From positions 1 through 26,085 of IMG/VR virus record IMGVR_UViG_3300048590_000175: a DNA stretch of 26,085 nucleotides; one strand, given 5' to 3'. The notes below the pieces were generated by a model. That model did not search any database, was not told where the DNA came from, and was given only the letters and a program-made list of their open reading frames with translations. This DNA comes from a virus. This document shows, piece by piece, positions 2,144 to 18,144 of this stretch (position 1 is its first letter; each line of letters starts with the position of its first letter). The position numbers and the translations under genes were made by a program.

Positions 2144-4168
2144 ATGCTGCGACGCGCCTACTCACTGCTCAACGTCAAGGCGATCGAAGAGCGCGGCGAC
2201 GAGTACATCATCACCGGCATCGCCAGCACGCCGACGCCCGACCGCATGGGCGACATCGTCGAGCCGCTGGGCGCGAAGTTCGCGCTGCCGATGCCGCTGC
2301 TGTGGCAGCACAACTCCGAGAAGCCGGTCGGCCGCGTGGAGTTCGCGAAGCCGACGAAGAACGGCATCCCCTACAGCGCCGCGCTGCCGAAGGTCAAGGA
2401 GGCCGGCGCGCTGAAGGACCGCATCGAAGAAGCGGTGCAGTCCATGAAGTACGGCCTGGTCGCGGCGGTGTCGATCGGGTTCCGCGCGCTCGAAGGCGGC
2501 TACGAGCTGCTCAAGAACGGCGGCCTTCGCTTCACCGACTGGGAGTGGCTCGAGCTCTCACTCGTCACGATCCCGGCCAACCCTGACGCGAAGATCGACG
2601 GCGTCAACGTCAAGTCACTGCTCCAGCCGGAAGCCCGCGAGGTGCTGCTGGAGCGCATGAAGTCGATCGACAGGCAGCACCTGGCCGCGCTTGGCCGCAA
2701 GGGTGCCCCGCCTGGCGATCGCGCAGGCCCCGGCGCTTCGGGGCACCAGAGCAGGCCGCCACAGGGCGGCCTTTTTCATTCCCGAAGCCAGAAAGGCAAC
2801 GCCATGAACCTCAAGGAAATGATCGAGGCGCGCTCGACGAAGAACGCGCGCCTGAAGGAACTCATCGACCTGCGCACCGCCGAGGCGCGCCAGTTCGAGG
2901 ACGACGAGGCAGCCGAGTTCGACGCGCTGACCGACGAGGTCAAGCAGCTCGACGACGACATCCGCGTCGCGAAGTACCACGCCGTGAACTCGTCCGCCGC
3001 CACGGCGGTGGACACCAAGGCCGCCAGCGGCCGCCGCGGTCCCGACATCATCGTGCGCAAGGAAGACCCGGAAGACAAGTTCCAGGGGCAGTCGTTCGTG
3101 CGGTTCGTCATCGCCAAGACGACCGCACAGATCATCGGTGGCGGCGTGCGCGCCTCCGACATCGCGCAGCGCATGTACGGCAAGTCGCACCCGGGTTTGG
3201 TGCAGTGGATCAAGGCCAACGAGATCGCGCCTGGCGGCACGGGCTCCGGCGAATGGGGTAGCGAACTCGCGGCGCCGGATTCTCGGTACACCGGCGACTT
3301 CATTGCCCTGCTGCGTCAGCGCACGGCCTACTGGCAGCTGCCCCTGCGCACCGCGCCCGCGAATGTCACCATCAAGGGCCAGGACGGCGGTGCCACGGCA
3401 AACTGGGTCGGCGAGCACAAGCCTATCCCGCTGTCGAAGCTCGACTTCATGGACCTGACGCTCACGCACCTGAAGGTTGCGGCAATCGCGCGCATGAGCA
3501 AGGACCTGATCAAGTTCGCGGCCCCGTCGGCGGAACAGCTGGTTCTGGACGACCTGGTGCGCGCCTGCGCGCAGAAGATCGATTCCACGTTCTTCTCCGA
3601 TGCGGCGGCCGTGAGCGGCATTTCCCCAGCAGGCATCCTGAACGGCGTTGTTGCGGAGAGCGCCAGCGGTGCCGATGGCGACGCGCTGCGGCACGACTTC
3701 GGCCTGCTTGAGCAGCCGTTCATCGACGGCTTCTACGACTCGGACCTGTGGGTCGTCACGACTCCGCAGCTGGGCGGGAGCATCGGGCGCATGGTCAACC
3801 CGCTGGGGCAGAGCGAGTTTCCCGGCGTTGGAAAGCGCGGAGGCCGGCTGTTCGACAACACGGTCGTCACGGGGCACAACGTCGGCCCTGGCGACTTGAT
3901 CCTGCTGTCACCGAGCGACATCTATCGCATCGGTGACACCGGCGTCGAGGTTTCCGTGTCCGACACGGCAACCATCGAGTCGTCTTCGGCGCCGGCCTCG
4001 TCTGGCACCACGACAACCGCGTCGGAGAACCTGCAGTCGATGTTCCAGAACGACCAGGTCGCAATCAAGGTGGTGCAGCCGATGAACTTCGCCAAGCGCC
4101 GCTCAAGCGCCGTGCAGTACATCGGCGATGCGGCCTACGGCGTGGCCGCTGGCCTGTCGACGAACTGA
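2144..4168 (+). CDS. Prohead protease / HK97-fold major capsid protein, one continuous reading frame
   Basis: This 674-residue frame joins two normally separate head genes. Residues 1-185 form a U35-type prohead protease: His56 in LLWQHN, Ser110 in VSIGF, and the family pattern LELSLVTIPANPDAKI with Glu137. Residues 221-674 are an HK97-like capsid protein: a charged helical delta/scaffold region (about 221-300) and then the capsid fold. Residues 185-220 are low-complexity and are encoded by DNA with two strong inverted repeats, so they look like former intergenic sequence now read through. A good Shine-Dalgarno and ATG start the capsid part at 2804. The phage may therefore make a fusion, a separate capsid protein, or both. 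Protease-capsid fusions are known in HK97-like phages. The start follows the TerL stop by 9 bases with GGAG upstream. Confidence 0.9.
   Translation: MLRRAYSLLNVKAIEERGDEYIITGIASTPTPDRMGDIVEPLGAKFALPMPLLWQHNSEKPVGRVEFAKPTKNGIPYSAALPKVKEAGALKDRIEEAVQSMKYGLVAAVSIGFRALEGGYELLKNGGLRFTDWEWLELSLVTIPANPDAKIDGVNVKSLLQPEAREVLLERMKSIDRQHLAALGRKGAPPGDRAGPGASGHQSRPPQGGLFHSRSQKGNAMNLKEMIEARSTKNARLKELIDLRTAEARQFEDDEAAEFDALTDEVKQLDDDIRVAKYHAVNSSAATAVDTKAASGRRGPDIIVRKEDPEDKFQGQSFVRFVIAKTTAQIIGGGVRASDIAQRMYGKSHPGLVQWIKANEIAPGGTGSGEWGSELAAPDSRYTGDFIALLRQRTAYWQLPLRTAPANVTIKGQDGGATANWVGEHKPIPLSKLDFMDLTLTHLKVAAIARMSKDLIKFAAPSAEQLVLDDLVRACAQKIDSTFFSDAAAVSGISPAGILNGVVAESASGADGDALRHDFGLLEQPFIDGFYDSDLWVVTTPQLGGSIGRMVNPLGQSEFPGVGKRGGRLFDNTVVTGHNVGPGDLILLSPSDIYRIGDTGVEVSVSDTATIESSSAPASSGTTTTASENLQSMFQNDQVAIKVVQPMNFAKRRSSAVQYIGDAAYGVAAGLSTN
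2702..2747 (+). repeat. Perfect 9-bp inverted repeat inside the protease-capsid linker
   Basis: GGTGCCCCG (2702-2710) is the exact reverse complement of CGGGGCACC (2739-2747), with a 28-base GC-rich spacer. Together with the next hairpin it makes about 75 bases of strongly structured RNA between protease and capsid coding sequence, which is unusual for protein-coding DNA. Confidence 0.6.
2753..2776 (+). terminator. Rho-independent terminator-like hairpin between protease and capsid
   Basis: AGGCCGCC (2753-2760) pairs perfectly with GGCGGCCT (2765-2772) around a 4-base loop ACAG. T residues run to 2776. It looks like an intrinsic terminator or attenuator, yet it lies inside the continuous protease-capsid frame and only 27 bases before the probable capsid start. 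It might trim protease mRNA relative to capsid mRNA, or protect the 5' end of a capsid message. Activity is inferred, not shown. Confidence 0.6.
2792..2806 (+). promoter_or_regulatory. Internal ribosome binding site and ATG for the major capsid protein
   Basis: AAAGG (2792-2796) lies 7 bases before an in-frame ATG at 2804. The spacing is good, and the residues that follow (MNLKEMIEAR) look like a typical N-terminus of an HK97-like capsid delta domain. This supports independent capsid translation despite the upstream fusion. Confidence 0.65.
2804..4168 (+). CDS. Major capsid protein (HK97 fold), internal start within the fused frame
   Basis: The frame from the internal ATG encodes 454 residues, a more usual size for an HK97-like capsid precursor than the 674-residue fusion. 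The first 80 or so residues are charged and probably helical (delta domain removed by the protease during maturation). The shell-forming domain follows, with the family-like stretch about ANWVGEHKPIPLSKLDFM and later ISPAGILNG. It is the main virion shell protein and should be the most abundant product here. The internal start is inferred from the ribosome binding site, the structured DNA upstream and family size; the fusion entry covers the alternative. Confidence 0.75.
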   Translation: MNLKEMIEARSTKNARLKELIDLRTAEARQFEDDEAAEFDALTDEVKQLDDDIRVAKYHAVNSSAATAVDTKAASGRRGPDIIVRKEDPEDKFQGQSFVRFVIAKTTAQIIGGGVRASDIAQRMYGKSHPGLVQWIKANEIAPGGTGSGEWGSELAAPDSRYTGDFIALLRQRTAYWQLPLRTAPANVTIKGQDGGATANWVGEHKPIPLSKLDFMDLTLTHLKVAAIARMSKDLIKFAAPSAEQLVLDDLVRACAQKIDSTFFSDAAAVSGISPAGILNGVVAESASGADGDALRHDFGLLEQPFIDGFYDSDLWVVTTPQLGGSIGRMVNPLGQSEFPGVGKRGGRLFDNTVVTGHNVGPGDLILLSPSDIYRIGDTGVEVSVSDTATIESSSAPASSGTTTTASENLQSMFQNDQVAIKVVQPMNFAKRRSSAVQYIGDAAYGVAAGLSTN

Positions 4169-4183
4169 CGACGTGCCAACACC

Positions 4184-4205
4184 GAGCCCGGCTTCGGCCG
4201 GGCTC
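4184..4205 (+). terminator. Stable UUCG hairpin after the capsid gene
   Basis: GAGCCCGGC (4184-4192) pairs perfectly with GCCGGGCTC (4197-4205) around TTCG, the very stable C(UUCG)G tetraloop. Only TTC follows, so it is a weak terminator at best. Protection of the capsid mRNA 3' end or partial termination are equally likely roles. It ends 17 bases before the next gene. Confidence 0.55.
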
Positions 4206-4222
4206 TTCACCGAGGGCTTCCC

Positions 4223-4606: not shown

Positions 4607-6027
4607 TGCGCCTGCCGTTCGGCTTTCAGATCACGCGCGCGAAGGCCTCGAAGCCGCTGTCCGGCGTCGACGACAGCCGCGGCTGGGTGCGCATCTTCGA
4701 CTGGATGCCCGGCGCCTGGCAGCAGGACTCGGCGGCGCCGTCGGAGTCGGTCATGGCGCAGGTGTACGTGTACGCCTGCATCACGCAGATCGCCGCCGAC
4801 ATCGGCAAGCTGCGCCTGCGCCTCATGCAGCAGACCGGCAGGGTCTGGGAAGAGGCGACCAGCCCGGCCTTCAGCCCGCTGCTGCTCAAGCCGAACCACT
4901 ACCAGATCCGCCAGCAGTTCGTGGAAGGCTGGATCGTCTCCAAGCTCTCGGCCGGCAACACCTACGCGCTGAAGCAGCGCGACCGCCGCAACGTCGTCAA
5001 GAGCCTGTACGTGCTCGATCCGTCCCGCGTGACGCCGCTCATCGCGCCTGACGGCGCCGTGTACTACCGACTCGGCGAAGACGACATCAACATGCTCGAC
5101 CAGGGTGTCGAGGCGGTGCCGGCCAGCGAGATCATTCACGACCGCATGCCGTGCCTGTTTCACCCGCTGGTCGGCGTGACGCCGCTGTACGCCGCGCACC
5201 TTCCGGCATCGCAGGCGCTGAAGATCCAGCGCCACAGCCGGCAGTTCTTCGAGCAGCAGGCGCAGCCTGGCGGCATCCTGACGGCGCCGCACCGGATCAA
5301 CGAAGAGACGGCGGCGCGGATCAAGAAGCACTGGGAAGAGGGCTACACCGGCAAGAACGCCGGCAAGGTCGCAGTGCTGGGCGACGGCCTGAGCTACACG
5401 CCGAGCGCAGTCACTGCCGTCGACGCGCAGCTGGCCGAGCAGCTCAAGCTGACCGGCGAGCAGATCTGCAGCGCGTTCCACATGCCGGCCTTCCTGGTCG
5501 GCGCCGCGCCGCAGCCGCCCTACGGCGACCGCGCCAGCGCGATGCAGCAGTACTACAATCAGTGCCTGCAGTCGCTGCTCAACGCGATGGAGGACTGCCT
5601 CGATGACGGCCTGGGCATCGGCCCCGGCGTGAAGAAGGAAGACCGCACGCTGCGCGTCGAATTCGACCTCGACGACCTGCTACGCATGGACAGCAAGACG
5701 CTGGCCGAGGTCGAGGCGATCAAGATCAAGGGCATCACGTCGCCGGACGAGTCGCGGGAGAAGTTCAACCTGCCGCCGGTCAAGGGCGGCGCGACGCCGT
5801 ACCTGCAGCAGCAGAACTACGCGCTGCACGCGCTGGCCGCCCGCGACGAGTCCGACGACCCGTTCGGAAAGGCGACGCCGCCCACACCGGCCCCTGCGCC
5901 AGCGGCCGCACCGTCGGCCGAGGAAGGCGAAGACGAGGCCGAAGAAGTGCGAGCCGCGCTCGGCCTGATCGCAAAGCGCGCGCCGCTGGGCAGCGCCCGT
6001 ACCTTGGAGGCGGCGCGATGCGCATGA
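4606..6027 (+). CDS. Portal protein (HK97 family)
   Basis: This is the dodecameric ring at the head vertex through which DNA enters and leaves. The protein is about 473 residues, a usual length. It has the N-terminal pattern VYACITQIAADIGKLRLRL, a central stem region with QALKIQRHSRQFFEQQAQPG and GDRASAMQQYYNQCLQSLL, and a Pro/Ala/Glu-rich disordered tail after about residue 415. The ATG at 4606 shares one base with the preceding stop (TGATG). A GTG three bases earlier (4603) is possible but less likely. It overlaps the next gene by 10 bases. Confidence 0.95.
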   Translation: MRLPFGFQITRAKASKPLSGVDDSRGWVRIFDWMPGAWQQDSAAPSESVMAQVYVYACITQIAADIGKLRLRLMQQTGRVWEEATSPAFSPLLLKPNHYQIRQQFVEGWIVSKLSAGNTYALKQRDRRNVVKSLYVLDPSRVTPLIAPDGAVYYRLGEDDINMLDQGVEAVPASEIIHDRMPCLFHPLVGVTPLYAAHLPASQALKIQRHSRQFFEQQAQPGGILTAPHRINEETAARIKKHWEEGYTGKNAGKVAVLGDGLSYTPSAVTAVDAQLAEQLKLTGEQICSAFHMPAFLVGAAPQPPYGDRASAMQQYYNQCLQSLLNAMEDCLDDGLGIGPGVKKEDRTLRVEFDLDDLLRMDSKTLAEVEAIKIKGITSPDESREKFNLPPVKGGATPYLQQQNYALHALAARDESDDPFGKATPPTPAPAPAAAPSAEEGEDEAEEVRAALGLIAKRAPLGSARTLEAARCA

Positions 6028-7334
6028 CGGCACTGGTCAAGGAGATCTTCGACGGGGTCGAGGCGTGGCTGGCGCCGACCATCGCCGGCATCGAACAGCG
6101 TCTCGCGGCCGTCGAGGATCGTCCGGCGCCGCGCGAAGGGAAGGACGGCGCACCAGGCCGCGACGGCAAGGATGGCGAGCCAGGTCCGCGCGGCGACAAG
6201 GGCGACCCGGGCCAAGACGGCGCCGACGGCAAGGACGGCCGCGACGGCAAGGATGGCAAGAGCATCACCGTCGACGACGTGATGCCCATGATGGAGGCGG
6301 CATTCGCGAAGTGGGCGCTGGAGTTCGAGCGCCGTTCGATGGACATGGTGCAGCGCGCGATCGACCGCTTGCCGGTGCCGAAGGACGGCAAGGACGGCGA
6401 GCCAGGTCAGCGCGGCGAGCAGGGGCTCCCGGGGCGCGATGGCCGCGACTTCGACCCGGACGTCCTGCGCGCCGCCGCTCGCGAAGAAGCGGCCGCCGAG
6501 GTGGCTGCGATTCCTCGGCCGGCCGACGGCAAGAGCGTGACAGTCGACGACGTGCGGCCGCTGATCGAAGGCGAGGTCAAGCGTCTGGCCGAGCAGCACA
6601 AGGCCGAGGCGCTGGCCGTCGTGCAGCGCGCAGTCGAAGCCATCCCGGTCCCGCGCGATGGCAAGGATGCGGACATGGACGCAGTGCGCGTCATGGTGCG
6701 CGAAGAGGCGCTGCAGGCCGTCAAGGCGATTCCTGTTCCGCGCGACGGCAAGGACGCGGACCCGGAGGCCGTGCGTCTGGCGGTCCGCGAGGAAGTCAGC
6801 CGCGCCGTCGCCGCACTGCCGCCGCCGCAGCCTGGCAAGGACGCCGACGCCGTGGCCATCGCGAAGGACGTGCTCGACATGGTCATGAAGTCGCTGCCCG
6901 CCGTGAAGGACGGCAGGGACGGCAAGGACGGCGAGAGCATCACCCCGGAGGACGTGCAGCCGCTCGTCGAGGCCGAGGTGTCGCGCCGCCTGCTGGAGAT
7001 CGAGCGCCGCGCCACGGAAGTGGCGCAGCGAGCGGTCGACAAGGCGCCGAAGCCGAAGGATGGCGCGGACGGGTTCACGCCGGACGATCTGGAGATCTCG
7101 CTGGAGGACCGGACGCTGACCATCACGCTCTGCGCAGGTGAGCGGCGCGTGCAGCGCCAGGTTCACCTGCCTGGAATGATGGTCTACCGTGGCGTGTACG
7201 CGCCTGGCAAGGCCTATGCACAAGGCGATGCCGTCACCTACGGCGGCAGCGTCTGGGTGGCAAAACGCGACACGGGCCAGCCGCCCAAGGGCGCAGGCGA
7301 CGACTGGCAGCTCGGGGTGAAGGGCACGCGATGA
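6018..7334 (+). CDS. Collagen-like virion protein with C-terminal carbohydrate-binding-like domain
   Basis: This 438-residue protein has at least two uninterrupted Gly-X-Y collagen-like blocks: about 14 triplets at residues 41-82, rich in GKD, and 7 triplets at 124-144. Shorter DGKD turns separate four or so helical segments in the middle, a repeating helix-turn pattern with PVPRDGKDAD motifs. The last 52 residues (387-438, with YRGVYAPGKAYAQGD, GGSVWVAK and W430) resemble chitin-binding type 3/CBM5-12 modules. A trimeric fibre or decoration attached to the head near the portal is the likely role. GGAGG 7 bases upstream supports the ATG at 6018. The Lys-rich triplets make it a possible substrate for the nearby glycosyltransferases; that link is inference. 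Confidence 0.8.
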   Translation: MRMTALVKEIFDGVEAWLAPTIAGIEQRLAAVEDRPAPREGKDGAPGRDGKDGEPGPRGDKGDPGQDGADGKDGRDGKDGKSITVDDVMPMMEAAFAKWALEFERRSMDMVQRAIDRLPVPKDGKDGEPGQRGEQGLPGRDGRDFDPDVLRAAAREEAAAEVAAIPRPADGKSVTVDDVRPLIEGEVKRLAEQHKAEALAVVQRAVEAIPVPRDGKDADMDAVRVMVREEALQAVKAIPVPRDGKDADPEAVRLAVREEVSRAVAALPPPQPGKDADAVAIAKDVLDMVMKSLPAVKDGRDGKDGESITPEDVQPLVEAEVSRRLLEIERRATEVAQRAVDKAPKPKDGADGFTPDDLEISLEDRTLTITLCAGERRVQRQVHLPGMMVYRGVYAPGKAYAQGDAVTYGGSVWVAKRDTGQPPKGAGDDWQLGVKGTR

Positions 7335-8304: not shown

Positions 8305-8908
8305 GTGGCTCAAGGAGCTGGCCGGGACGGTGGTATGCATTGCGAGCGGGCCGAGCCTGACCGCTGAAGACTGCGAACTGGTGCGCGCGAGCGGCCTGCC
8401 GACGATCGTGACGAACACGACGTACCAGCTGTGCCCGTGGGCGACGGTGCTGCTGGCGTTCGACGAGAACTGGTGGAAGGTGCACCACGCGCAGGTGGCG
8501 AAGGACTTCAAGGGCCGGCGCGTCACCTGCTCCAACAACGGCGCGAAGTACGGCGCGCTGTCCCTGCGGACTCTGCGGCTGATGAGCTTCAAGCCATTCG
8601 GCAACAGCGGCGCGGCGGCAGTCTCTCTCGCCGCCCTGGCCGGCGCGAAGAAGGTCATCTTGCTGGGCTATGACTGCCAGCACACGGCGGGCCGGACGCA
8701 CTGGCACGGCGACCACCCGGCGCCGCTGGGCAACGCCGGCAGCGTCGGCAAGTGGCCGAAGCAGTTCGCGCAGGTGGCGATGTACGCGAAGGGCAGGCGC
8801 TGCCAGGTAGTGAACGCAAGTCGCTCGACGGCGCTGACGTGTTTCGCGCGCAGCACGCTAGAGGAAGCGCTGGCACTGGCGGTGCCACAGGAGATGGCGG
8901 CAGCATGA
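8285..8908 (+). CDS. MptE/Maf-like (DUF115) protein, possible sialyltransferase-fold glycosyltransferase
   Basis: This 207-residue protein has the N-terminal signature VVCIASGPSL (SGPSL at 21-25), shared by the MptE-like/Maf (DUF115) family and resembling the nucleotide-sugar-binding start of GT42 sialyltransferases. Later segments (LLAFDENWWKVH, VILLGYDCQH, THWHGDHP) are also typical of this phage-borne group. Maf proteins act in flagellar glycosylation, which favours a role in sugar transfer, while MptE is a pterin pyrophosphokinase, so the reaction is uncertain. It starts inside the end of the head-tail adaptor gene and ends in an ATGA overlap with the radical SAM gene, implying coupled production with it. 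Confidence 0.7.
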   Translation: MASIRAEWLKELAGTVVCIASGPSLTAEDCELVRASGLPTIVTNTTYQLCPWATVLLAFDENWWKVHHAQVAKDFKGRRVTCSNNGAKYGALSLRTLRLMSFKPFGNSGAAAVSLAALAGAKKVILLGYDCQHTAGRTHWHGDHPAPLGNAGSVGKWPKQFAQVAMYAKGRRCQVVNASRSTALTCFARSTLEEALALAVPQEMAAA

Positions 8909-9948
8909 CCGAAGACCTGTACTCGCAGACCAAGCCGGTCTACTGGCTCGACCGCCTGGCCACGCTGCGCGACGGCTTCTCGCCGGCACCCGTGCACGTG
9001 CAGCTCGTGCTCTCGGACCTGTGCAATCAGGACTGCGGCTTCTGCGCCTACCGCATGTCGTCTGGCCTCTCGAACGAGCTCTTCCCGGAGGGCGCCCGCA
9101 AGAACCCGAACCGGCAGATCGCGACGGACAAGGCGCGCGAGATCATCGACGACTGCGCCGACATCGGCGTTCACGCGATCCAGTTCACCGGCGGCGGCGA
9201 GCCGACAGTGCACCCGGATCACCTGGAGATGTTCGCGCGCGCGCAGGCCCGCGGCATGTCGACGGCGCTCGTGACCAACGCGATCGCGCTGGACACCGAA
9301 CATCAAGCCGTGCACGCGATGCGCTGGATTCGCGTCTCGATCGACGCCGGCAGCGCGGAGACCTACGCCCGAACGAGGCGAGTGGCGCAGCGGTACTGGC
9401 CTGTCGCCTGGCAGAAGGTCAAGGAGCTGGCACAGCGGTGCACCGGGACCGTCAGCGTCGGCTTCGTGGTCACGCCGGAGAACTACCGCGAGCTTCCGGC
9501 CGCCTGCGAGCTTGCGCTGGAGGCCGGCGCTGCGAACGTCCGCGTCGGCGCCGTCTTCAGCGCCGACGGCGTCTCGCACTACGGCGACCTGCTGCCGGAG
9601 ATCGCCGCGGTGCGAGCCGATGCGCGCGCGCGGTTCGGGGCTCTGGTCGTTGACCTGTTCGATCGGCGCATCGCTGACCTGAATGCCGGCAGCCCGACGG
9701 AAGAGCTCTGCGGCTACCAGCACCTGTCGACGTACATCGGCGGCGACTTGGGCGTGTACCGATGCTGCAACACCGCGTACACGCGCGCCGGCAAGGTCGC
9801 CAGCCTGCATGACCGCCGGTTCGCGAGCCTGTTCGGCCAGGCCGTGCAGCACTTCGACGCCACAGGCTGCCGCTTCTGCCAGTTCCGCGGTCAGAACCAG
9901 GTGATCGCTGCGACGCAGCGCAAGAGCATGCACGCGGAGTTCGTGTGA
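8905..9948 (+). CDS. Radical SAM protein with SPASM-like C-terminal cysteines
   Basis: This 347-residue protein is a radical S-adenosylmethionine enzyme. The CX3CX2C motif (Cys40, Cys44, Cys47, in LCNQDCGFCAYR) binds the [4Fe-4S] cluster, and GGGEP at 96-100 contacts SAM. Cys269, Cys287/288, Cys322 and Cys325, with the pattern GVYRCC and CRFCQFR, suggest an auxiliary cluster as in SPASM/twitch enzymes, which often modify peptides, proteins or sugars. The start chosen is ATG 8905, which overlaps the preceding stop as ATGA; the frame is open further upstream but that part is antiparallel to no known domain. The substrate is unknown. Its coupling to four glycosyltransferase-like genes suggests one pathway. 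Confidence 0.88.
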   Translation: MTEDLYSQTKPVYWLDRLATLRDGFSPAPVHVQLVLSDLCNQDCGFCAYRMSSGLSNELFPEGARKNPNRQIATDKAREIIDDCADIGVHAIQFTGGGEPTVHPDHLEMFARAQARGMSTALVTNAIALDTEHQAVHAMRWIRVSIDAGSAETYARTRRVAQRYWPVAWQKVKELAQRCTGTVSVGFVVTPENYRELPAACELALEAGAANVRVGAVFSADGVSHYGDLLPEIAAVRADARARFGALVVDLFDRRIADLNAGSPTEELCGYQHLSTYIGGDLGVYRCCNTAYTRAGKVASLHDRRFASLFGQAVQHFDATGCRFCQFRGQNQVIAATQRKSMHAEFV

Positions 9949-10604
9949 TCTCGGTCTGCATGCCCTACTGGCAGCGCCAGACCCACCTGGACCGGACGCT
10001 GGCGAGCTACCGGCGGCTGTACGGGCACCTGGACATCGAGGTGTCCATCTGCGACGACGGCTCGCCGGTCCCGGTTGAAGCGCCAGGGTGCGTCGTCACG
10101 CGGCTGCCGGCCAAGAGCGTCGGCCTCAACCCGTGCGTGCCGATCAACCGCGCGGTGCAGGCCAGCAGCGGGGACGTGATCGTGCTCACGAACCCGGAGG
10201 TCGAGCACACCGACGACGTGCTCAGCGGCATGCTGGCGATGCTGCAGAGCGAAAACGACTACGTCACCGTGTCATGCCGGGACGCCGGGGGGTTGTGGCT
10301 GGCCGGGCCGAAGGTCGACTACATGAAGCACGGCCGCCTGCCGGTGCCTCCTGGGTCGCACTTCCACTTTTGCGCGATGTTCCGGCGTTCGCTGTGGGAC
10401 CGCGTCGGAGGCTTCGACGAGGCATACCGCCACGGCCGCAGCTGTGAGGACAACGACTGGTTATGGTCGCTGGCGTCCGCTGGCGCTGTGTTCAAGCTGG
10501 CGCCCGGTGTCGTGCGTCACCACGCGACGCCGCATGCGTATCAGGGCGTGCACGAGACGAACCGCGACCGGCTCGTGTCCAAGTGGGGGCACCTGTGGAC
10601 CTGA
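9945..10604 (+). CDS. Glycosyltransferase, GT2-like
   Basis: This 219-residue protein has a GT-A fold pattern: an N-terminal strand ISVCMPYWQR, DDGS at 37-40 for nucleotide-sugar binding, a GLNPCVPINRAV helix, and NPEV at 83-86 where many GT2 enzymes carry DxD. GGFDEAY and the acidic ED at 168-169 follow, matching the catalytic-base region. It probably moves a sugar from a nucleotide donor to an unknown acceptor. No membrane segment is evident, so it should act in the cytoplasm. The GTG start overlaps the radical SAM stop as GTGA, and its end overlaps the next transferase by 10 bases. Confidence 0.85.
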   Translation: MISVCMPYWQRQTHLDRTLASYRRLYGHLDIEVSICDDGSPVPVEAPGCVVTRLPAKSVGLNPCVPINRAVQASSGDVIVLTNPEVEHTDDVLSGMLAMLQSENDYVTVSCRDAGGLWLAGPKVDYMKHGRLPVPPGSHFHFCAMFRRSLWDRVGGFDEAYRHGRSCEDNDWLWSLASAGAVFKLAPGVVRHHATPHAYQGVHETNRDRLVSKWGHLWT

Positions 10605-11221
10605 CCGTGGCGTGCGTGCTGCGCAGCGGCGGTTCCTACAGCGCCGCCCATGTCGAAGGTCTGCGCGCGCAGGTCGCGCACTGGATGCCGGCGGCACGCT
10701 TCGTGTGCCTGTCTGATGTGCCCGTCGACTGCGAGCGCCTGCCGCTGCAGACCGACTGGCCTGGATGGTGGGCAAAGCTGGAGCTGTTCCGCGAGCTCAC
10801 CGGCCGGACGCTGTACCTGGACCTGGACAGCGTGATCGTTGCCGACCCATCGCCGCTGGTGACCGGGCGGTTCCTGATGATCAGGAACTGGGCGTATCCG
10901 AGCCTCTTCGCGAGCGGCGTGATGTCGTGGGACGGCGACTACAGCCACATCACCAAGGCCTTCGAGCCGGTGGCCGCCGAGGTCATGGCGACCTACACGA
11001 CCTGCGAGAAGTGGGGCGACCAGGCGTTCATCGCCGAGCATGCCGGAGACGTGCGCGCGTTCCAGGATGGGGCCATCGTCAGCTACCGGTATCAGATGGC
11101 ACGGCGCCGGCTCAGAGTACCGCCGAGGCGCGCGCGCATCGTCGCGTTCAACGCCACGCACGTGCCGTGGGAAGGGCCGGACTGGGCGCGCAAGTGGTGG
11201 CGACAAGGGGCACCGGCATGA
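10595..11221 (+). CDS. DxD glycosyltransferase-like protein, copy 1
   Basis: This 208-residue protein starts MDLTVACVLRSGG and carries WPGWWAKLE at 55-63, the acidic metal-binding type motif DLD at 76-78 in RTLYLDLDSVIV, and a later WGDQAF. This is the pattern of GT-A transferases of the GT8-like type. The GTG at 10595 was chosen because a GGGGG run ends 5 bases upstream; it overlaps the GT2 stop by 10 bases. The next gene is a clear paralogue with the same motifs. The acceptor and donor are unknown. The two probably arose by duplication and may add successive sugars. Confidence 0.75.
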   Translation: MDLTVACVLRSGGSYSAAHVEGLRAQVAHWMPAARFVCLSDVPVDCERLPLQTDWPGWWAKLELFRELTGRTLYLDLDSVIVADPSPLVTGRFLMIRNWAYPSLFASGVMSWDGDYSHITKAFEPVAAEVMATYTTCEKWGDQAFIAEHAGDVRAFQDGAIVSYRYQMARRRLRVPPRRARIVAFNATHVPWEGPDWARKWWRQGAPA

Positions 11222-11817
11222 CGACGCTGCTGTGCGTGCTGCGCGCCGGCAAGGACTTCGCGCCGGCTCACGTGCAGTGGCTGGCGCGCCAGGTGCCGGG
11301 CATCGTGTGCCTGTCGGACCAGTCTGTCCCCGGAGTGCCAACCATCGCGCTGCGCACGCGCTGGCCTGGCTGGTGGGCGAAGCTGGAGGCATTCGACAGC
11401 GAGCTCGTCAGCGGCGACGTGCTGCTGATGGACCTGGACACGGTCGTGCTGAAGCTGCCGCGGTTGCCATCGAAGACGACCGTGCTGTCGGACTTCTACA
11501 GGCCGCACCTGATGGGCTCGGGCTTCATGTTCATCACGGCCGCGGACCGCGCGCGCTGCTGGGAGGCGTTCAACGTCAACCCTGCGCGGCACATGCGCGA
11601 GTGCGTCACGCGCGCGCGCTGGGGCGACCAGGGGTTCCTGCAGCCGTTCCTCGGCGTGGCCGCGCGGTGGGGCGACGAAGTGCGCAGCTACAAGGTGCAC
11701 TGCCGAAGCGGGGTGCCGCAGGGCACGCAGATCGTGTGCTTTCACGGCAAGCCGAGGCCGTGGGACGTGGCCGACGAGTGGGTGCCGCCGCTGCACCGAG
11801 CGATGGAAGCCGCGTGA
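11218..11817 (+). CDS. DxD glycosyltransferase-like protein, copy 2 (paralogue of the preceding gene)
   Basis: This 199-residue protein aligns by eye with the preceding one: CVLRAG...AHV..L..QV near the start, WPGWWAKLE at 49-57, DLD at 72-74 in MDLDTVVLK, and WGDQGF later. A GT-A glycosyltransferase role is likely for the same reasons. The start is ATG 11218, overlapping the previous stop as ATGA; the frame stays open upstream but only as a shadow of copy 1. The C-terminus (VCFHGKPRPW) resembles the end of GT8-like transferases. It is the last gene of the accessory cassette before the small coiled-coil protein. Confidence 0.75.
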   Translation: MTTLLCVLRAGKDFAPAHVQWLARQVPGIVCLSDQSVPGVPTIALRTRWPGWWAKLEAFDSELVSGDVLLMDLDTVVLKLPRLPSKTTVLSDFYRPHLMGSGFMFITAADRARCWEAFNVNPARHMRECVTRARWGDQGFLQPFLGVAARWGDEVRSYKVHCRSGVPQGTQIVCFHGKPRPWDVADEWVPPLHRAMEAA

Positions 11818-15302: not shown

Positions 15303-16540
15303 TGGCGCAGCCGACATTCAACAACGCGGCCCAGTTCTACGACGGCAGTTTTTCGAGCACGCTGACGGGCTCCTTCGATGTCGGCTCTGGCGACGACATT
15401 GGCATCATCGCGTTCGCCACGGTCAACAACAACGCCACGACCATCGACTCCCTCGTGATCGGTGGCGAGACGATGACCGCTGACACGGCGTTCGATCTTT
15501 CGTCCATCGGCTACACGGGCGAGTACAGGGCTTTCCGGCTGCCGGCCTCGGCACTCACCGGCTCGCAGTCGTTCACGCTGACATGCGGCGACGCCAACAG
15601 CCGCCCCGGCGTGGCGTTCATGTCCTACCGCGACACGAGCGCTATATCGTCTTCAAGCAACTTCGGCGCGAGCGGATACAACCCGCAGCCGACCAAGAGC
15701 AGCGACACGGATAGCGTGGTCGCCGGACTCTATTCGATCTCCACCGGCGGCACGATTGCGGCGGACTCGCCGACGGTCGAGCGGCTCGACAGCGCATCCT
15801 CAAACTTCCCGCAGATATACGGGATGGACGAGCCCGGGGCGTCGTCGGTCACGATGTCGGCGACAGTGACGGGTGGAGGCACCCCGTACACGTTCGGCTC
15901 GACGTGGAGCATCGCCGGCATTACGGCGCCCGCCGACCCGACCCTGAGCGCGGCCAGCTTCACCGCAGACGGCTCAACCACTGGCGAATTGTCGGTGACG
16001 ACGGACGTCGCGGCGGGCACGCTGTACGCCGTGCTGACGACCAGCAGCACGACGCCGAGCGATACGCAGATCGAGAACGGCCAGGATCACACCGGCGCGG
16101 CGGCGGCATGGGATGGCAGCGACGCGAGCGTGATCGCCGGGGCCAACACCTTCAACGCGACCGGCCTCAGCCCGGCCACCCAATACTGGCCGCACTTCTT
16201 CCATGACAACGGGGCCGGCGATGTCATCACTGGCACCAGCGACACGACGGACCCGCTGCGCGGCTTCGACTTCGACACCGACCCGGACTGCATCTTCGGC
16301 GAGATCGTCGGGTCGCTGACCGGCATCGGCCTGGAGGCCGAGGACGAGGACTACATCGTCCGGGCCTATGACGTGGCGACGGGTGCGCTCGTCGAGGAAA
16401 GCGGCACGCTACAGATTGACAGCACCGGTAGGCTGCCGCGGTGGGAGGATGTTGCCCTCGCCGCCGCCACCGAGTACCACCTCGTCTTCGTGCGCGTGGG
16501 CGACGGCGAGATCGGCTGCAAGAGGATGACGACGACGTGA
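15302..16540 (+). CDS. Beta-sandwich virion protein, possible Fn3-like domain
   Basis: This 412-residue Ser/Thr/Gly-rich protein looks like two to three beta-sandwich domains: an N-terminal domain (about 1-200), a central part with LSVTTDVAAGTLYAVLTTS and FNATGLSPATQYWPHFFHD that matches the Fn3-like arrangement, and a C-terminal beta-rich part (TEYHLVFVRVG). The ATG shares a base with the preceding stop. No enzymatic motif was seen. It is most likely a virion surface or fibre protein, encoded with the kelch-like protein and the repeat protein as a set. Confidence 0.6.
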   Translation: MAQPTFNNAAQFYDGSFSSTLTGSFDVGSGDDIGIIAFATVNNNATTIDSLVIGGETMTADTAFDLSSIGYTGEYRAFRLPASALTGSQSFTLTCGDANSRPGVAFMSYRDTSAISSSSNFGASGYNPQPTKSSDTDSVVAGLYSISTGGTIAADSPTVERLDSASSNFPQIYGMDEPGASSVTMSATVTGGGTPYTFGSTWSIAGITAPADPTLSAASFTADGSTTGELSVTTDVAAGTLYAVLTTSSTTPSDTQIENGQDHTGAAAAWDGSDASVIAGANTFNATGLSPATQYWPHFFHDNGAGDVITGTSDTTDPLRGFDFDTDPDCIFGEIVGSLTGIGLEAEDEDYIVRAYDVATGALVEESGTLQIDSTGRLPRWEDVALAAATEYHLVFVRVGDGEIGCKRMTTT

Positions 16541-18144
16541 TCCTGATCGGCGGCATCCCCGGCCGGCTGAAGGTCGGCAACGTCGGCATCTTCCCGTCGG
16601 AGATCAGCGGGCTCGGCGACGAGGACTCGCCGCTGCTCAACGACCCGGACCTGCCGGCCGACGCGGACACACAACTGCTGTGGGTGCTGCTGACGCCGCT
16701 GATCGCCAGCGGCACGACGCAGGCCGACGACTTCGGCGGGTACGCGCTGATCGGCGCCGACGATGGCGCCTATGAGCAGGACTACCGTCTGCTGTGGATC
16801 GAGGCTGACGGCACGACTGGCGCGGACGATGGGACGATCTACGTCACCGTCGGCAGCACGACCATCAATGCAGGCGCCCCGTCGGAAATCGAGGCGCAGA
16901 CCTACGCGCCCACTGTCGACCAGACGGCAAACCAGCGCGTCGTGCCTTCGGCCGCGGCGATCGAGGCCACGACCTATGCGCCGGTGGTCGACCGGACAGC
17001 GAACCAGACCGTCGCTCCGGCCGCTACTTCCTTCGCGGTCACCAGCTACGCGCCGACAGTCGATCGCCAGGACTCGCGAACCATCACACCGGCGGCAGCG
17101 GCCATCGCAGCTGCCTCCTACGCGCCGACCGTCTCGCGCACAGAGAACCAGATCGTGCGGCCTGGCGTGGCCGCTGTGGAGGTCGCAAGCTACCAGGTGA
17201 CGCTGGCGCAGACGGCCGACCTGACGCTGTCGCCGCAGTTCGCGGCACTGGCTGCTGCCACCTACGCGCCGACGGTGTCGCGCGGTGGCGCATTCGTCGC
17301 CACTCCCGGCGCTGCATCGGTCTCGCTGGCCACCTATGCACCCACCGTAGACCGCACGGCGCATGTCACGCTGCAGCCTGCGGCCGCCGCGGTGGCGCTC
17401 TCCAGCTACGCGCCGACGGTCCAGCGCACGCAGTCTGGAGTCGTGTCACCCGGCTATGCCGCTGTCGAGCTTCAGACCTACGCACCGACGGTCGACAGGA
17501 CGGCGCACCAGATCGTCGCGCCGGACCTGGGCGCCGTTGCGCTGCAGACCTACGCGCCGAGCGTCCAGCAGCAGACCGGCACGCGCGTGCGACCTGGCCC
17601 GGCTTCGCTGCAGGTGCTCACGGCTGCGCCGACGGCCACGCAGACAGGCAATAGGCGGTTCGTCCCTGGTGTCGCGCAGGTCAGCGCAGCGCCGCGCGTG
17701 CCGGTCGTCACGCGCACCGAGCCATCAACCGTCCCGAGGCACGTCTTCATGCCACCAGTTCACACCTGGCTGGCCGCCAGCGCGGCCGTCACGAACATCG
17801 TCGGCACCTCGCCGCCGCGCATCTGGCGCCACGGAGCGGCCCCGCAGACGCGCGACGGTGCGCCGATGCCCGACCCGTACCTGACTTGGTTCAGCCCGAG
17901 CATGGCGCCGGAGGTCAACCTCAGCGGCCTGCCGCCGACCGCTCGCGTCAGCGTGCAGGTGGACTGCTGGCACCAGACCGATGCCGGCGTCGAGATCCTG
18001 GCCCGCGCGGTGCGCGACGCAATGGAGCAGCACAGCTACATGACGGGGCTCGTCGCGAACCTGCGCGAGCCAGAGACGCGGCTGTACCGCATGGGCCTGC
18101 AGTTCGACGTGTGGCTCGACCGAGGCCGCGAGCGCGCCTTGTGA
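16537..18144 (+). CDS. 24-residue-repeat protein fused in frame to a DUF3168 tail terminator
   Basis: From the GTG at 16537 (overlapping the previous stop as GTGA), the frame encodes 535 residues. Residues 1-112 hold a beta-rich phage domain (QADDFGGYALIGADDGAYE). Residues 113-400 are twelve repeats of 24, each built on P-x-A-x-x-x-x-x-x-Y-A-P-T-V-D-R-T-A. Residues 405-535 are a complete DUF3168-like domain, the tail terminator that caps the tail tube. The last domain has its own ATG and ribosome binding site, so it can be made alone. The full-length frame would make a repeat rod carrying a tail-terminator end, which I regard as unusual. Confidence 0.75.
   Translation: MILIGGIPGRLKVGNVGIFPSEISGLGDEDSPLLNDPDLPADADTQLLWVLLTPLIASGTTQADDFGGYALIGADDGAYEQDYRLLWIEADGTTGADDGTIYVTVGSTTINAGAPSEIEAQTYAPTVDQTANQRVVPSAAAIEATTYAPVVDRTANQTVAPAATSFAVTSYAPTVDRQDSRTITPAAAAIAAASYAPTVSRTENQIVRPGVAAVEVASYQVTLAQTADLTLSPQFAALAAATYAPTVSRGGAFVATPGAASVSLATYAPTVDRTAHVTLQPAAAAVALSSYAPTVQRTQSGVVSPGYAAVELQTYAPTVDRTAHQIVAPDLGAVALQTYAPSVQQQTGTRVRPGPASLQVLTAAPTATQTGNRRFVPGVAQVSAAPRVPVVTRTEPSTVPRHVFMPPVHTWLAASAAVTNIVGTSPPRIWRHGAAPQTRDGAPMPDPYLTWFSPSMAPEVNLSGLPPTARVSVQVDCWHQTDAGVEILARAVRDAMEQHSYMTGLVANLREPETRLYRMGLQFDVWLDRGRERAL
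16873..17736 (+). repeat. Twelve tandem 72-base repeats (24 codons each)
   Basis: The repeats start at 16873, 16945, 17017, 17089, 17161, 17233, 17305, 17377, 17449, 17521, 17593 and 17665. All keep exactly 72 bases and the frame. The protein unit conserves a leading Pro, TYAPTV in the middle, and small or polar residues around it; the first and last copies are the most divergent. Copies differ by synonymous and conservative changes, so this is an old coding repeat, not a recent slippage array. No spacer structure is present, so it is not a CRISPR. Confidence 0.9.
17736..17751 (+). promoter_or_regulatory. Internal ribosome binding site and ATG for the tail terminator
   Basis: GAGG (17736-17739) lies 9 bases before an in-frame ATG at 17749. 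The start falls at the exact boundary between the repeat region and the DUF3168-like domain, which supports separate translation of the terminator. Confidence 0.55.
17749..18144 (+). CDS. DUF3168-like tail terminator (tail completion protein), internal start
   Basis: From ATG 17749 the frame gives 131 residues, a usual size for DUF3168. Family features are an N-terminal helix (VHTWLAASAAVTNIVG), the strand with PDPYLTWFS, and the pair VSVQVDCWHQTDAGVEILARA and LYRMGLQFDVWLD. The protein caps the tail tube and joins it to the head connector. It lies just before the tail tube gene, its standard place. The same residues also form the end of the 535-residue repeat protein when the upstream start is used. 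Confidence 0.75.
   Translation: MPPVHTWLAASAAVTNIVGTSPPRIWRHGAAPQTRDGAPMPDPYLTWFSPSMAPEVNLSGLPPTARVSVQVDCWHQTDAGVEILARAVRDAMEQHSYMTGLVANLREPETRLYRMGLQFDVWLDRGRERAL

Follow-up and report, generated by a model that had tools for sequence, protein, structure and literature searches.

The linker between the prohead protease and the major capsid protein of the virus examined here carries two short hairpins, A and B, whose nucleotide sequence, judged by comparison with related phages, is under selection over and above that imposed by the encoded protein. They lie in a single gene in which protease and capsid are fused, within a stretch of 26,085 nucleotides (IMG/VR record IMGVR_UViG_3300048590_000175) referred to here as the window. 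Analysis at the sequence level demonstrates the fusion, a conserved internal start for the capsid protein, and both nucleotide-level conservation and pairing of the hairpins. We infer that two products are made, that the fusion is the protease's way into the prohead, and that the hairpins form an RNA site tuning protease against capsid. How phages set the protease:capsid ratio from neighbouring or fused genes is poorly understood, and the hairpin signal offers a concrete handle on this question. The features concerned are the following.

2144..4168, + strand: protease, linker, delta-type domain and HK97-fold capsid in one open frame of 674 codons (ORF, Pfam, model)
2144..2689, + strand: protease part, residues 1-182 (Pfam, invariant residues of relatives, model)
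2683..2696, + strand: hairpin A, GGCC-GCGCTT-GGCC, loop GCGNYN (nucleotide-level conservation)
2702..2747, + strand: 9-bp inverted repeat; the 3' arm belongs to hairpin B, the 5' arm is not conserved
2727..2744, + strand: hairpin B, GCCCCG-GCGCTT-CGGGGC, loop GCGNYN (pairing and covariation)
2753..2777, + strand: terminator-like hairpin and T-tract within the open frame
2790..2796, + strand: weak Shine-Dalgarno-like AGAAAGG 5' of the internal start
2804..4168, + strand: 454-residue capsid protein starting at the internal ATG; its N-terminal part is a helical delta-type domain

The frame at 2144-4168 is open throughout and contains both Pfam domains, in agreement with the original prediction, made from the DNA letters, that protease and capsid share one frame. 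Peptidase_S78 (PF04586, 34.5 bits against a cut-off of 21) spans residues 50-152 of the fusion and Phage_capsid (PF05065) residues 402-658, and positions 9-626 of the 626 in PHROG 617 align to residues 2-665 (E 5e-98). His56 and Ser110 of the predicted prohead protease are invariant among relatives. The predicted structure, modelled from an alignment from which one row belonging to the annotated phage collection was excluded, places the protease at approximately residues 1-182 and, after a disordered linker (184-218), a helical domain of the delta type (223-285); a flexible stretch (286-309) leads to a capsid domain whose model matches the capsids of Bxb1, HK97 and D3 with E values down to 2e-13. 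The capsid part is an HK97-fold major capsid protein.

To place this gene among its relatives, 216 loci were collected from viral contigs and from one genome per species; both parts are present in 209 of them and fused in 133, counts that are not population frequencies, the relatives having been gathered by protease or capsid homology. Removal of near-identical junctions left 151 non-redundant relatives, 99 fused and 52 split. Among annotated phages searched by tblastn, one frame covers 99% of the protein in PAJU2, IME307, FSL SP-016, RHph_X2_26 and several coliphages, and the two parts are split in SOVA965 and the Moraxella Mcat phages. The linker of the window holds no stop, and the fusion is conserved among relatives, as expected from the proposal that a stop had been lost and a fusion is made; rather than stops in the linkers of all near relatives, the nearest three (L001, with 60% capsid identity the closest, L139 and L006) are all fused. 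The fusion is real and occurs in a large group of tailed phages, but it is already known. PAJU2 ORF003 is annotated as 'prohead protease fused capsid protein', and the available text of two papers describes protease-capsid fusions in gp5 of Pseudomonas phage MD8 (PMC8508860) and in 17 Paracoccus siphoprophages (PMC6536676); all of these, with PHROG 617, resemble the window in joining protease, scaffold-like region and capsid in one gene. Neither linker hairpins nor a conserved internal start, both of which distinguish the window, are mentioned in the annotations or in the available text of either paper.

The internal start is conserved in the relatives. The capsid part begins with ATG in 91 of the 99 fused loci and follows a Shine-Dalgarno-like sequence. 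Strong Shine-Dalgarno sequences (-8 kcal/mol or better) occur in 37% of fused loci and in 6% of matched windows in the same frames, and very strong ones (-10 or better) in 24% and 1.2%, where the control takes the best site of each matched window and so yields a smaller, fairer effect than a comparison with single ATG codons. A conserved Shine-Dalgarno sequence and start codon inside a longer frame, as in a nested in-frame gene, are therefore found here, with the window's own AGAAAGG being weak (-2.6). Because this signal before the capsid part is conserved, the fused form and the free capsid form are both likely to be made. The original prediction had offered the fusion or a capsid start at 2804 as alternatives; each is conserved in relatives, and the exclusive choice is better read as both. 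In five relatives (L088, L090, L092, L185 and L194) the last 20 nt before the capsid start include a small hairpin, GCCC-GAAGGA-GGGC, whose loop contains the Shine-Dalgarno sequence; the loop GAAGGA occurs seven times among fused linkers.

The conserved start also bears on whether the fusion matters at all. It might be incidental, the protease stop having been lost in GC-rich genomes and only the internally started capsid protein being of consequence; this would accord with that start and with a fused or split state that switches at least 23 times on the capsid tree (40 in shuffles). Stop loss alone, however, predicts long out-of-frame overlaps as well, and against 99 in-frame fusions there is one doubtful overlap, in L039, which is probably L038 in a frameshifted copy. 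When the 99 fused linkers are read in their two alternative frames, stops occur in 45 and 59 of them. Because long out-of-frame overlaps are otherwise absent, fusions appear to be kept in frame, and we consider an incidental origin improbable.

Comparison of the linkers revealed a recurrent 14-nt pattern, a 4-bp stem around the loop GCGNYN. Among loops of 3-9 nt the 6-nt class is prominent (208 against 74 in dinucleotide shuffles) and consists mostly of GCGNYN; the 8-nt class shows a mild excess over the same shuffles. The 99 fused linkers (~18 kb) contain 134 GCGNYN hairpins, whereas the remaining ~1 Mb of these and the split loci contains 113, the chance level. The hairpins are thus approximately 65-fold denser at the protease coding end than elsewhere, and they lie on one strand. 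One or more occur in 83 of the 99 fused linkers (84%) and in 35 of the 52 split ones (67%); the remaining 16% and 33%, which include Acinetobacter and Moraxella phages, have no recognisable GCGNYN hairpin.

Chance expectations were taken from a first-order Markov model, dinucleotide shuffles and codon permutation, the last of which bears directly on whether the hairpins could arise incidentally from a conserved protein motif, [AG]A[STL]G, written in complementary GC-rich alanine and glycine codons (for example, the protease's own cleavage site for freeing the capsid from the fusion). The motif does fall within the protein consensus (AAxG, PPGAxG), and an AASG lies near the delta/capsid boundary of the window. 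Permutation of synonymous codons, however, which leaves the proteins unchanged, reduces the hairpins of the fused linkers from 134 to 10.1 +/- 2.9, a loss of more than 90%, and in split phages 49 are observed against 3.6 +/- 1.9. The identical loop is, moreover, read in two frames: in class A the loop is in frame and the encoded peptide is AA[STL]G; in class B, which mostly encodes PGASG, the loop is shifted by one base (with another frame used in six cases). The hairpin is also retained with different amino acids (ARAGA, SVIG), and relatives seldom have the motif at their delta/capsid boundary. The permutation and this scarcity largely refute the view that a conserved protein cut site alone accounts for the hairpins, and we regard the by-product explanation as very unlikely.

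Pairing was assessed at every GCGNYN site in linkers and protease tails, chosen blind to pairing. Stem positions 1-4 are complementary at 57, 62, 62 and 49% of sites, as compared with 25-27% outside, and positions 5 and 6 pair at chance level. B sites selected by loop, frame and distance only are paired at 92-95% in positions 1-4, above every shuffle, and their stems include GC, CG, AT and TA pairs; A sites selected likewise pair less cleanly (77-82% at positions 1-3). Phages of 38-47% GC retain the hairpin with different stems. The combination of conserved loop and covarying stem that marks RNA operator hairpins is accordingly present.

A search of IMG/VR with an exact 16-mer, which is independent of protein homology, placed the same element at the same site. 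The B 16-mer TCCCGGCGCTTCGGGA was found in 67 stretches, 56 of them at a protease-capsid junction, as against seven matches and none at a junction for a control with permuted loop; the class A 16-mer lies at a junction in 28 of 41 matches. The 11 exact B copies away from the junction adjoin genes that are unrelated or without assignment. Formation by chance from high GC content is ruled out by position, strand, the low-GC cases and the permuted-loop control. The element is not a phage-wide repeat either: away from the junction, such hairpins show no pattern and fall on either strand in the window, in PAJU2, in most of RHph_X2_26 and in FSL SP-016. No junction hairpin was found in more distant capsid genes (BgVeeders33, Marinobacter AS1, PY54, Persinger and PPpW-3), and the element consequently belongs to this protease-capsid clade. 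The Rfam 15 covariance models gave no credible match at the junction of the window and ten relatives, and literature searches, which reached little of the subscription literature, found no paper on such linker hairpins. These results point to an undescribed RNA control signal, kept at the nucleotide level across phages of alpha-, beta- and gammaproteobacteria, whether fused or split.

The location of the hairpins in split phages is informative as to what they act on. All of them lie within the protease frame, with none in 2660 nt of gaps; hairpin B stands a median of 47 nt upstream of the protease stop (sd 12), and its distance to the capsid start varies more (sd 41). The inverted repeat and the T-tract hairpin had originally been taken as marks of non-coding sequence, a view that finds no support: A and B are conserved inside coding sequence, in split phages as well. 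Because A and B are present whether or not the genes are fused, and hold their distance from the protease end, an effect on the protease portion of the mRNA is more probable than one on capsid initiation, and cutting or binding at them would fit. In several split loci (L017, L046, L074, L127 and L145) the protease tail past hairpin B is a short basic and hydrophobic peptide, such as VKLIRRNP, VVQIRKV or FVIKKIHIG, possibly a targeting tail.

A and B might instead act in the DNA, as points of single-strand recognition or recombination; they lie at a module boundary, and mosaicism at junctions is common in phages. A double-stranded binding site, however, would not be expected to show a loop conserved only on the coding strand and a stem free to vary in sequence, and the hairpins stand inside the protease frame and not in the gap. 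We consider a DNA-level role highly improbable and read A and B as a post-transcriptional control element at the protease-capsid boundary.

The linker of the window contains two further structures, a terminator-like hairpin and a 9-bp inverted repeat, both of which are present as originally described. The hairpin, AGGCCGCC-ACAG-GGCGGCCT at 2753-2772 followed by TTTTC, has an 8-bp stem and the GC-rich stem and T-tract of an intrinsic terminator, and is a putative terminator by sequence. Of the six terminator-like sites that 12 kb contains, it ranks first in strength; six is not a significant count in itself, as 5.2 are expected by chance. It becomes significant through its relatives: in eight fused loci, including the window, a T-tract hairpin with differing stem occurs at the nearly equal distance of 47-54 nt before the capsid ATG. 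This hairpin is a third element, separate from A and B, and may pause, end or slip transcription. A leaky terminator or a stimulator of RNA polymerase slippage, yielding some protease-only messages or frames, would account for its retention in these eight loci, most with 5-7 T. Only eight of the 99 fused loci have it, however, the T run is no longer than 5 in the window and is broken in L001, the hairpin would normally be opened by translating ribosomes, and a frame-specific signature is lacking; we find this role unlikely. The arms of the inverted repeat lie at 2702-2710 and 2739-2747. It was rejected as a conserved element: L001 lacks the 5' arm, and there the 3' arm forms hairpin B by local pairing. 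Folding of the window is predicted to pair 2735-2742 with 2781-2788, displacing hairpin B and enclosing the T-tract hairpin, an alternative that the L001 sequence also permits.

Phages make hundreds of capsid subunits and far fewer proteases. Drawing on the sequence evidence, we hold with moderate confidence that the fusion and the free capsid are both produced and that the hairpins are a recognition site in the mRNA setting the amount of protease produced or kept in relation to capsid. Initiation at 2144 would give the full-length fusion of 674 residues, a minor shell subunit that would carry the protease into the prohead, and initiation at 2804 the free capsid protein of 454 residues. A protein would bind the hairpins or a ribonuclease would cleave them, and the amount of protease would be set at this site.

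Known systems offer partial parallels. In HK97, genes 4 and 5 likewise place an S78-type protease beside an HK97-fold capsid with delta domain; there, the two genes are separate and the gene order differs, whereas in the window they are fused and the portal follows the capsid. In lambda C/Nu3, an in-frame internal start within the protease gene gives a more abundant shorter product, an arrangement that would work alike, although the nested product is the scaffold in lambda and the capsid in the window; the likeness drawn here is in how the two would work. The coat-protein operator of RNA phages is a short hairpin at the boundary of a structural gene, its loop conserved and its stem variable. 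Hairpins A and B appear similar in both respects; the loop differs, and the window phage has double-stranded DNA. As a tentative and somewhat unlikely extension, the paired GCGNYN hairpins may constitute an undescribed RNA operator of HK97-type double-stranded DNA phages, with a loop-binding protein setting the protease:capsid ratio in fused and split genes. The binder could be a phage or host protein, possibly the capsid or protease itself. If a protein binds the hairpins, the two would form a small new RNA-protein pair.

Several further features of the window were observed outside the linker. A GC-rich hairpin, GAGCCCGGCTTCGGCCGGGCTC, at 4185-4210, 3' of the capsid stop, resembles an ordinary gene-end hairpin. 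Directly 3' of the portal gene, 6018-7334 encodes a collagen-like repeat protein (Pfam Collagen). At 8905-11817, unusual cargo for a head-tail module separates the head-completion gene from the structural genes that follow: a radical SAM protein (8905-9948), a glycosyltransferase of family 2 (9945-10604) and two further frames without assignment. At 16513-18144, a repeat-rich N-terminal part ('YAPTVDRT...' units) is fused to a gp17-like tail completion domain.
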